Shown piece after piece: positions 35,731 to 38,488 of a DNA stretch of 64,000 bases. Source of the stretch: Candidatus Goldiibacteriota bacterium HGW-Goldbacteria-1 (GTDB lineage Bacteria > Oederibacteriota > PGYV01); the NCBI GenBank assembly GCA_002839855.1, contig PGYV01000002.1, forward strand, positions 279,570 to 343,569, in the 5' to 3' direction. Position 1 is the first letter of the stretch. The number at the start of each line of letters is the position of its first letter. The notes beneath the pieces were generated by a model. It worked only from the letters and a program-made list of their open reading frames with translations. It was not told the origin of the DNA and did not search any database. Made by a program: the position numbers and the translations under genes.

Positions 35731-36510
35731 ATGGCAGGTAAAAAAGTAATTGAGGGATTAGAGGAAACTTCCGCGGATAAAAAGAAAAACAATGAAATAG
35801 CAAAGCTGAAAAAGATTATAGCGGAAAAGAATATGGAAATAGAGACGCTTACCAAAATAAGCAAAACAATAGTATCGGGGCAGTATCTTGAAGAGATACT
35901 TCACCTTGTGGCCACATTAACCGCGCAGATGACGGATTCCAAGATTTGTTCCATAATGCTTGTGGATGAAGAAAAACAGGAGCTTAAGATAATAGCCACC
36001 CAGTCGCTTAGCAAAGAGTACAGGGATAAAAATCCGCTTAAAGTGGGCGAAGGAATATCCGGCTACGCTGTTCAGACAAAAAAGCCTATAGCCGTGTATG
36101 ATATACAGGTTGAACCAAGGTATTTTTATAAGGAAATAATGAAAAAAGAGGGCATGAAATCAATGCTTGCAGTACCTATGGAAGTCCGCGGCAAGGTTAT
36201 AGGGGTTATTGATGTTTACACCGTGGTTAAACACAAATATACGGCTGAAGAAATAAGCATATTAAGCGCGGTTGCCAACCAGGCGGCTATAAGCATTGAT
36301 AATATGAACTTAAAGGAAGAAGCGTTAATGGCAAAAGAGGCGCTTGAAACCCGCAAGCTGATAGAACGCGCCAAGGGTGTTCTGATGAAAAACGGGAAGT
36401 TAACGGAAGATCAGGCACACAAAGCCATACATAAAAAGTCAATGGACTCCCGCAAGAGCATGAAAGAAATCGCCGAAGCCATCCTTCTGGCCTCGGAAAT
36501 GCAGAAGTGA
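35731..36510 (+). CDS. GAF-ANTAR regulator (RNA-binding antiterminator type)
   Basis: 259 residues. A short coiled-coil (KKNNEIAKLKKIIAEKNMEI), a GAF sensor domain (~residues 50-195; SKICSIMLVDEEKQELKIIA, VGEGISGYAVQTKKP, MLAVPMEVRGKVIGVIDVYT), a helical linker, and a C-terminal ANTAR domain (~residues 205-255; LIERAKGVLMKNGKLTEDQA, then RKSMKEIAEAIL). ANTAR proteins bind RNAs with two hexaloop hairpins and prevent premature termination, often in nitrogen metabolism. The next gene is glutamate dehydrogenase, whose leader has a matching hairpin pair. No kinase or receiver domain is present, so the signal is probably a small ligand of the GAF domain. Confidence 0.9.
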   Translation: MAGKKVIEGLEETSADKKKNNEIAKLKKIIAEKNMEIETLTKISKTIVSGQYLEEILHLVATLTAQMTDSKICSIMLVDEEKQELKIIATQSLSKEYRDKNPLKVGEGISGYAVQTKKPIAVYDIQVEPRYFYKEIMKKEGMKSMLAVPMEVRGKVIGVIDVYTVVKHKYTAEEISILSAVANQAAISIDNMNLKEEALMAKEALETRKLIERAKGVLMKNGKLTEDQAHKAIHKKSMDSRKSMKEIAEAILLASEMQK

Positions 36511-36571
36511 TTAAGGCATAAACTATAAGCAGATAAGCAGTTAAACATAAGCGAAATATTATATAAAGGTT

Positions 36572-36675
36572 TGGCAGACGCACCTTTTAAGGCACGGTAG
36601 TTGTTTTTTTAGTGTTATTATTTAATGATTTGCAAACCGGATCAAATACACGCACCCTAAAGGGTGCGGCTACCA
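36572..36675 (+). repeat. ~105-bp composite repeat, copy A
   Basis: Starts with an inverted palindrome unit (TGGCAGACGCACC...GGTAGTTG, 36572-36603), continues through a spacer containing TTTAATGATTTGCAAACCG, and ends with a CGCACC-CTAAAG-GGTGCG palindrome and GCTACCA (36651-36675). Copy B repeats the same order. Confidence 0.6.
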
Positions 36676-36716
36676 GAACGAAAAAAATCCCCCTTGAAAA
36701 AAGATAATTTAATGTT

Positions 36717-36822
36717 TGGTAGGCGCACCTTTTAAGGTGCGGCAGTTGTTTTTTTTAGTTTGATTATTTAATGATTTGCAAACCGTATCAAGAACGCGCG
36801 GGCTAAAGACCCGCGTCTACCA
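36717..36822 (+). repeat. ~105-bp composite repeat, copy B
   Basis: TGGTAGGCGCACC-TTTTAA-GGTGCGGCAGTTG (36717-36748; the unit is one palindrome), the spacer with TTTAATGATTTGCAAACCG, then CGCGCGGGC...CCGCGTCTACCA (36795-36822). The spacer is nearly identical to copy A, while the palindromic cores differ. Confidence 0.6.
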
Positions 36823-36870
36823 AAGCGAGAGAATTAAAGCAAAAACCTGCGGCGGTAAAAACGAAACGTC

Positions 36871-36966
36871 CGACCTTCCGACCTTCCGACCTTCCGAGCC
36901 TCCGAGCCTCCGAGCTGCCGAGCTGCCGAGCTGCCGAGCTGCCGAGCTGCCGAGCTGCCGAGCTGC
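36871..36966 (+). repeat. 8-bp tandem array: three related words, 12 units
   Basis: Three CGACCTTC, two CGAGCCTC and seven CGAGCTGC units in exact head-to-tail order. A short inverted array with related words lies at 41735-41766, on the other side of the gdhA-nfnAB-sensor genes. Confidence 0.85.
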
Positions 36967-36989
36967 CGTCTTAATCAGTAAACTTCAAC

Positions 36990-37017
36990 TTGAATGTTTT
37001 GGATATTTTGTTATAAT
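36990..37017 (+). promoter_or_regulatory. Sigma70-type promoter for gdhA
   Basis: TTGAAT (36990-36995), 16-bp spacer, TATAAT (37012-37017). Expected transcription start near 37024, 13 nt before the first leader hairpin. Confidence 0.7.
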
Positions 37018-37036
37018 TTACCGATTGAAAAAAACT

Positions 37037-37115
37037 CCCGGATACAAAGGTGTAGACGGGCGTACTAAAATATCTTAGTCGGCACACCGGTGTGCCTGCG
37101 GCATTGCTGCTGCGG
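37037..37115 (+). promoter_or_regulatory. Candidate ANTAR target RNA in the gdhA leader (two hexaloop hairpins)
   Basis: Hairpin 1 (37037-37060): CCCG, tandem G-A pairs, TAC, loop AAAGGT, then GTA, GA, CGGG. Hairpin 2 (37081-37096): GGCAC, loop ACCGGT, GTGCC. Both loops are six bases with A at 1 and G at 4, the known ANTAR signature. The 20-nt linker is longer than usual. A third hairpin (37096-37115, tetraloop TTGC) shares one base with hairpin 2, so the two could compete, but no T-run follows it. Confidence 0.55.
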
Positions 37116-37150
37116 AAGAAAATTAATCTAATATGAAGCAGGAGGAACAA

Positions 37151-38488
37151 ATGTCATACGTACAGAATGTTATTGAAATAGTAAAAAAACGCAATCCCAA
37201 CGAACCGGAATTTTTACAGGCGGTAACAGAAGTTCTTGAATCGCTTGAACCTGTAATTGCAAAGAACAAGAAATATGAAGACCACAACATACTTGAAAGA
37301 ATTGTAGAACCGGAAAGACAGATAATATTCAGGGTGCCATGGGTTGATGATAAAGGAAACGTACGCGTTAACCGCGGTTTCCGTTTTCAGTTTAACAGCG
37401 CTCTTGGGCCATACAAAGGCGGAATCCGCTTACATCCTTCAGTAAACGCTTCCATCCTTAAATTTTTAGGTTTTGAACAGGTATTCAAAAACTCGCTTAC
37501 CACTTTGCCGATGGGCGGAGCCAAAGGCGGTTCTGATTTTGATCCCAAAGGCAAATCGGATAATGAAGTAATGCGTTTTGTACAGTCCTTTATGACGGAA
37601 CTTTTCCGCCACATCGGGCCGGACACAGACGTTCCCGCAGGCGACATTGGAACAGGCGGACGTGAAATTGGTTATATGTTTGGACAGTACAAAAGGCTTG
37701 CCAATGAATTCACAGGCGTGCTTACAGGCAAAAACTTAAAATGGGGCGGCTCTTTAATACGCCCTGAAGCAACCGGATACGGCTGCGTTTATTTCGCGGA
37801 AGAAATGCTTAAGACAAAGAATGATTCCATTAAAGGCAAGACCTGCCTTGTTTCCGGTTCCGGCAACGTGGCGCAGTACACAGTAGAAAAAATTAATGAT
37901 CTTGGCGGCAAGGCCGTAACGCTTTCTGATTCGGACGGCACAATTTATGACAAAGACGGAATCACGGCGGAAAAACTTGCGTTTGTTATGGAACTTAAGA
38001 ATGTAAAACGCGGACGTATCAAAGAATACGCTGATAAGTACAAATGCGAATTTTTCGCGGGCAAAAGGCCGTGGGGAATTAAAGCGGACTGTGCTTTCCC
38101 AAGCGCGACACAGAACGAAGTTGATGTAAATGACGCGAAGGCCCTTATTGCCAACGGCTGCAAACTTGTAAGCGAAGGCGCGAACATGCCTTCCACACCG
38201 GAAGCAATTGAAGTTTATCTGTCAAACAAGATTCTTTACGGGCCGGGAAAAGCCGCAAACGCGGGCGGAGTTGCAACATCCGGCCTTGAAATGAGCCAGA
38301 ATTCGCTCAGGCTTTCATGGACACGCGAAGAAGTAGACGTTAGGCTCCACAACATAATGATTGCTATTCACAAACAGTGCATTGACGCTTCCACACAGTA
38401 CGGCCAGCCCGGTAACTACGTAATGGGCGCAAACATAGCCGGATTCGTAAAAGTGGCGGATTCAATGATAGAGCAGGGTGTAGTTTAG
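37151..38488 (+). CDS. gdhA: NADP-type glutamate dehydrogenase
   Basis: 445 residues from ATG 37151, chosen because CAGGAGGAA lies just upstream; an ATG at 37133 has no such site. Hexameric GDH of the bacterial ~450-residue class. Seen: [20 protein letters not shown], the catalytic Lys motif [40 protein letters not shown], and the nucleotide fold [12 protein letters not shown]. It aminates 2-oxoglutarate with NAD(P)H; NADP preference is inferred from the class. Upstream lie the GAF-ANTAR gene and a two-hairpin leader. NfnAB, which can make NADPH, follows. Confidence 0.95.

Follow-up and report, generated by a model that had tools for sequence, protein, structure and literature searches.

ANTAR circuits acting on nitrogen genes, and matches to their RNA motif that lack terminators, are already known (PMC3369931, PMC8164766). 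In the ANTAR protein EutV, the hexaloop is contacted by residues R142, K143, K147, K149, E160, Y164, R168 and M172, with Tyr164 being the aromatic residue that stacks on the G at loop position 4 (PMC8934654). The linker between paired hairpins is 5-12 nt in eut (PMC3369931), and 2-25 nt has been accepted in actinobacteria (PMC8164766). The main text of Ramesh et al. (2012; PMC3369931) presents predicted ANTAR regulons with glutamate synthase, glutamine synthetase, ammonium transporter and P-II, lists GAF-ANTAR proteins as uncharacterised, and names no glutamate dehydrogenase target. Likewise, no ANTAR-gdhA circuit was seen among the listed titles and abstracts on ANTAR with gdhA or glutamate dehydrogenase.

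The window, i.e. the whole 64,000-nucleotide stretch of DNA analysed here, from genome G000, contains a GAF-ANTAR regulator gene followed by gdhA (Table 1). An initial annotation had reported an ANTAR gene and then gdhA with a good promoter, and its coordinates were right, as judged from the domain matches (PF03861, PRK09414) and the TTGAAT-16-TATAAT promoter at 36990-37017. The gdhA start, placed there at 37133, is most likely the ATG at 37151 behind AGGAGG, and the leader is about 130 nt long. The NfnA/SudB-like gene that follows is probably co-regulated with gdhA, presumably through a shared transcript, which may also carry the GltA/NfnB-like gene.

Table 1. Features of the ANTAR-gdhA locus, with positions in the window
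Feature	Position	Strand	Basis or remark
GAF-ANTAR regulator gene, 259 aa	35731..36510	+	Pfam GAF_2 and ANTAR above cut-off
gdhA promoter TTGAAT-16 nt-TATAAT	36990..37017	+	sigma-70-like; kept in G001, G002
P1 CCCG-GA-UAC[AAAGGU]GUA-GA-CGGG	37037..37060	+	A1/G4 hexaloop, C-G closing pair; covariation, 11 leaders
Linker hairpin ACUAA[AAUAUC]UUAGU	37064..37079	+	A1 without G4; fold and compensatory change in G002
P2 GGCAC[ACCGGU]GUGCC	37081..37096	+	A1/G4 hexaloop
P3 UGCGGC[AUUGCU]GCUGCG	37097..37114	+	third A1/G4 hexaloop, abuts P2
Shine-Dalgarno AGGAGG of gdhA	37140..37145	+	sequence; ~26 nt 3' of P3
gdhA, NADP-specific glutamate dehydrogenase, 445 aa	37151..38488	+	PRK09414 E 5.3e-234
NfnA/SudB-like FAD/NAD-binding subunit	38583..39443	+	PRK06222
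GltA/NfnB-like protein, NADPH-dependent glutamate synthase small-chain type	39430..40869	+	TIGR01316 above cut-off

The spacer between the ANTAR gene and gdhA spans about 0.5 kb and is rich in repeats. Two alike intergenic repeats (36560-36670 and 36715-36830), with GC-rich inverted repeats CGCACC..GGTGCG, probably belong to a dispersed repeat family, and motifs resembling them were found in the G001 spacer. A tandem repeat of CCGAGCTG in 12.4 copies (36870-36968) lies directly 5' of the gdhA promoter; the spacers of G001 and G002 diverge at this position, with retention of the promoter.

The regulator contains an ANTAR domain (PF03861, E 1.7e-20, 72.9 bits against a curated cut-off of 27.3) and a GAF_2 domain (E 6.6e-21), and a genome-wide domain search found this ANTAR domain to be the single one in the 2.86 Mb genome. 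It aligns without gaps to EutV (6WSH/6WW6), NasR (4AKK) and Rv1626 (1S8N). In this alignment, the EutV contacts are retained as R208, K209, R213, K215, E226 and M238, the Tyr164 position is His230 in the window's protein and His in G001 but Tyr in G002, and the Arg168 position is His234 in the window's protein. Among curated models, the GAF domain is nearest to those of PtsP and NifA, which respond to Gln/2-oxoglutarate and to 2-oxoglutarate, respectively (PMC5024086, PMC8219145). Because of this resemblance, a nitrogen-status signal is a plausible ligand by analogy.

The gdhA leader was predicted to fold into four hairpins in a row: P1, a linker hairpin, P2 and P3. The two hexaloops with A at position 1 and G at position 4 (A1/G4) that had been noticed earlier, AAAGGT in P1 (37046-37051) and ACCGGT in P2 (37086-37091), are both present, but the count was understated, as the P3 loop AUUGCU is a third; a dual-hexaloop ANTAR target calls for at least two such hairpins with at least three pairs each. 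P3 had been drawn at 37096-37115 and cast as a competing structure; the hairpin exists, but it is itself an A1/G4 hexaloop, and forcing the hairpins barely changed Shine-Dalgarno (SD) accessibility. The linker between P1 and P2 is 20 nt, as remarked in the initial annotation, but is filled by its own hairpin, in which an A-U pair was found to have changed to G-C in a compensatory manner in G002 (within-genus comparison). This linker measures 16-20 nt in G002, G003, G005 and G006, and the linker between P2 and P3 measures 0 nt. Similarly, P2 is fully palindromic in the window, but the palindrome is broken in G002, where ACCGGU has become ACCGAU with A1 and G4 retained.

The leader region showed no Rfam match near the gathering score, nor did the searched loci of the order apart from one tRNA; no known riboswitch was found in the leader, and the viral contigs searched held no relatives. 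Two further structures were considered and rejected. One was a long-range stem (37023-37028 with 37126-37131) that would close the array; although it can be drawn in G000, G003, G009 and G012, it beat shuffles clearly in G012 alone (P 0.002), did so by a narrow margin in G000 (0.036), and is lost in G002. Anti-SD pairing with the linker or P3, sought by eye, showed no conservation.

The best tandem A1/G4 hexaloop was scored in the 220 nt 5' of gdhA in 18 genomes. In all eight gdhA leaders of the window's order (G000, G001, G002, G003, G005, G006, G009 and G012), none of 500 dinucleotide shuffles reached the observed score, and A1/G4 ranked first of the 16 loop-letter pairs. The score was zero in five of five gdhA leaders from outgroups without ANTAR (G037, G047, G049, G056 and G057). 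A survey of 174 gene starts at order-level loci gave eight strong tandems, located before gdhA (5), glutamate synthase (2) and an ANTAR gene (1); the tandem before G004 gltB was missed by the automatic scorer owing to a stem mismatch. The covariation among related gdhA leaders that had been suggested as a check was found: stacked P1 hairpins of 11 leaders had 93.9% of cells paired and 18 two-sided changes (0/500 shuffles), a count that leans upward because the rows were selected for pairing and A1/G4. A MAFFT alignment of five leaders agreed in direction, with three two-sided pairs over P1 and P2 (4/500 shuffles). The C6-G13 closing pair under the loop was invariant in 11 P1 and seven P2 sequences. 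The second hairpin had a fold probability of just 0.26 in G012 and 0.30 in G005. When the R1 covariance model was run on G000, the gdhA leader was the sole significant match (E 5.7e-19; next 0.17); the model is fitted to the P1-P2 spacing, and targets spaced otherwise would escape it.

Gene order within the order follows the same association. The ANTAR gene lies directly 5' of gdhA in G000, G001, G002, G006, G009 and G012, which represent four families. In G004 and G008, gdhA was undetected, and ANTAR stands 69-74 nt 5' of an archaeal-type glutamate synthase gene with hexaloops between them. G003 has ANTAR before the archaeal-type glutamate synthase and a separate gdhA, with tandems at both. 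ANTAR and gdhA are jointly absent from G007, G010, G011 and G013. In G005, a tandem precedes gdhA and ANTAR was not found (assembly 82% complete); the regulator could have been lost to an assembly gap, with gdhA about 240 nt from the contig end. An ANTAR gene kept while the hexaloops before gdhA are lost, the arrangement named beforehand as contrary to the proposal, was not encountered: members of the order with both genes keep the tandems. The local ANTAR-RNA circuit on gdhA put forward in the initial annotation thus holds as a well-supported prediction of nitrogen control, given the tandems in every order leader, their absence from the ANTAR-less outgroups and the swap to gltB. What the comparison itself shows is the protein family, the array of hexaloops, the conservation of the two together, and their connection with ammonium assimilation.

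Two other leaders in these genomes deserve mention. The leader of the G003 ANTAR gene itself (L171, minus strand, ~210-300) has the classical ANTAR antitermination layout, complete with a T10 terminator, and therefore suggests positive autoregulation of that gene; since the gltB and gdhA leaders of G003 lack a terminator, both modes seem to operate in this one genome. Outside the window, the large glutamate synthase leader L267 (G000:C1:82000-94000, minus strand) contains a covarying stem, AATCAG/CTGATT (AACCGG/CTGGTT in G001), whose loop CGCAAAGCAGGGATGCAT is conserved; 3' of this stem stands one A1/G4 hexaloop, ACGAC[AAGGAA]GTCGT, and the leader has no Rfam match. It may be a further target of ANTAR or a regulatory RNA of a different kind.

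Beyond the order, gdhA leaders of sister families within the phylum (G015, G021, G026 and G035) end in a T-run terminator, and the last hexaloop shares the 5' arm of that terminator. In L040, L041 and L042 (gdhA leaders of G035, G015 and G026), the terminator-side loops read GNNGNN (GAAGTT, GAAGGC, GAAGAC, GAGGAC) rather than ANNGNN, as if A1 had been replaced by G, and because of this the strict tandem scorer gave zero for these three leaders. A species-level genome scan yielded ANTAR homologues, and the 80 closest loci were kept, among them Omnitrophota, Nitrospira, Elusimicrobia, Firestonebacteria and Deltaproteobacteria by depositors' names. In other phyla, a hexaloop overlaps a T-run terminator at L097 and L107 (gdhA) and at L105, L109 and L128 (gltB). 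Glutamate synthase leaders L064 and L089, from MAGs deposited as Omnitrophota, have tandem hexaloops with no T-run terminator after them; the terminator-less form may therefore extend beyond the window's order. A1/G4 tandems were the commonest of 16 loop types across the best 80 loci (21; next 11). Within the fetched stretch, 56 of the 80 also hold genes for glutamate synthase, glutamine synthetase, ammonium transporter, NAD synthase or glutamate dehydrogenase. One GAF-ANTAR subfamily is now linked to ammonium assimilation in this way, so that RNA-level control of nitrogen assimilation may be at work in many uncultured lineages. An unexpected neighbour was NAD synthase, homologues of which occur on 23 of the 80 closest loci (L050-L129), often immediately 3' of ANTAR.

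How would such an array act on gdhA? The initial annotation had noted that no classical terminator follows the hexaloops, and indeed no T-run terminator was found after the last hexaloop in eight gdhA or three gltB leaders of the order, where the sequence is A-rich; G009 is a possible exception, its P1 hairpin itself ending in T7. Classical antitermination, the action that the initial annotation cited for ANTAR proteins, is not supported at these leaders; the order seems to have preserved the element that ANTAR recognises, without the classical terminator. Folding of ten order leaders showed the hexaloop hairpins to be mostly preformed. The last of them ends 20-34 nt 5' of the SD in nine of the ten leaders (42 in G005), and forcing the hairpins shifted SD/AUG accessibility by at most 0.10 (SD in G000, 0.71 free and 0.72 forced). 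In G000, no hexaloop hairpin overlaps the SD or start codon, a gap of about 26 nt intervening.

On balance, we consider it probable that the GAF-ANTAR protein binds the preformed array and adjusts gdhA after transcription start, according to a nitrogen-status ligand. The physical binding, ligand and output that we infer would run as follows. A one-component GAF-ANTAR protein would be made from the gene adjoining gdhA; its GAF domain would take up the nitrogen-status ligand; the protein would bind the array of already folded A1/G4 hexaloops at the start of the gdhA message and sit immediately 5' of the 30S docking site. Our best guess for the output is ribosome loading or mRNA fate, because there is no classical terminator and the SD is neither overlapped nor sequestered. 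Several findings count against this circuit: the P1-P2 linker of 20 nt is beyond the range tolerated by EutV and P2-P3 has none (PMC3369931), the G4-stacking aromatic of EutV is replaced by His in G000 and G001, and no switch for the output was seen in the folding of the ten leaders, as forced hairpins barely alter SD/AUG accessibility. The wider proposal is more tentative, and we hold it at somewhat less than an even chance: a third ANTAR output mode, in which preformed arrays 20-34 nt 5' of the SD, with neither terminator nor overlap with the ribosome-binding site (RBS), would allow a GAF-ANTAR nitrogen sensor to control ribosome loading or mRNA decay.

The main rival is ordinary ANTAR antitermination at an unrecognised terminator, which could depend on Rho or be a weak hairpin that lacks a U-run, with binding letting RNA polymerase pass. 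It draws on the T-run terminators that overlap hexaloops in the sister-family and other-phylum leaders listed above, on the terminator form of the G003 ANTAR gene's own leader, and on Rho, which is encoded in G000; given the A-rich sequence in place of a T-run after the last hexaloop of the 11 order gdhA and gltB leaders, with the possible exception in G009, we regard it as unlikely. Less likely still is translational repression, in which array-bound ANTAR would occlude the RBS and block 30S docking, as proposed for mycobacterial ANTAR RNAs. The closeness of the terminator-less arrays to the SD fits this explanation, but the G000 hairpins exclude the SD and start codon, unlike the actinobacterial cases (PMC8164766), and the protein would have to span about 26 nt. 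That the hairpins are general 5'-UTR structure, independent of ANTAR and beside its gene by coincidence, is close to refuted: in its favour, the stability of the leader stems by themselves exceeds that of shuffles only modestly (z -2.26), but the specific A1/G4 identity, the covariation alongside an unchanging C-G closing pair, the co-occurrence with ANTAR, the swap to gltB and the restriction to nitrogen genes all argue against it.

Overall, the predicted binding of a preformed array by a GAF-ANTAR protein would make this locus a variant ANTAR nitrogen circuit that does without a terminator. As far as the literature consulted shows, the candidate novelties are gdhA as an ANTAR target, the comparative link between a GAF-ANTAR subfamily and its RNA, arrays of three hexaloops, and a leader form, shared across the clade, that lacks a terminator and does not overlap the RBS. 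The terminator-less order beside terminator-type sister families offers a natural comparison for ANTAR action without a terminator.

What distinguishes this locus from the described systems? With EutV and the eut leaders of Enterococcus faecalis (PMC3369931, PMC8934654), it shares the ANTAR contact residues, save Tyr164 and Arg168, and tandem A1/G4 hexaloops; the A-U and C-G closing pairs required in eutP P1 (PMC3369931) match the AC[loop]GU of P1 and P2. However, EutV takes its input from a phosphorylated receiver and the window's protein has a GAF domain, and eut has dual hexaloops with a 5-12 nt linker and an overlapping terminator, whereas the window has three hexaloops, linkers outside that range, no such terminator, and gdhA as target. 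NasR/nasF of Klebsiella (PMC7496416) likewise combines a one-component ANTAR protein with fused sensor, a two-hairpin motif, A1 and G4, and nitrogen assimilation, and the C:G closing pair from NasR in vitro selection (PMC7496416) equals the invariant C-G of the order leaders. Nevertheless, NasR senses nitrate through a NIT domain, with nasF under antitermination, in contrast to the GAF domain and the leader without classical terminator found here. The regulons in the main text of Ramesh et al. (2012; PMC3369931) have nitrogen management in common with the window's locus, and some of their matches also lack terminators. Finally, the actinobacterial translational ANTAR RNAs (PMC8164766) are terminator-less dual hexaloops near gene starts, with linkers of up to 25 nt accepted; their hairpins overlap the RBS or AUG in 37% of cases, whereas those of the window end about 26 nt 5' of the SD.
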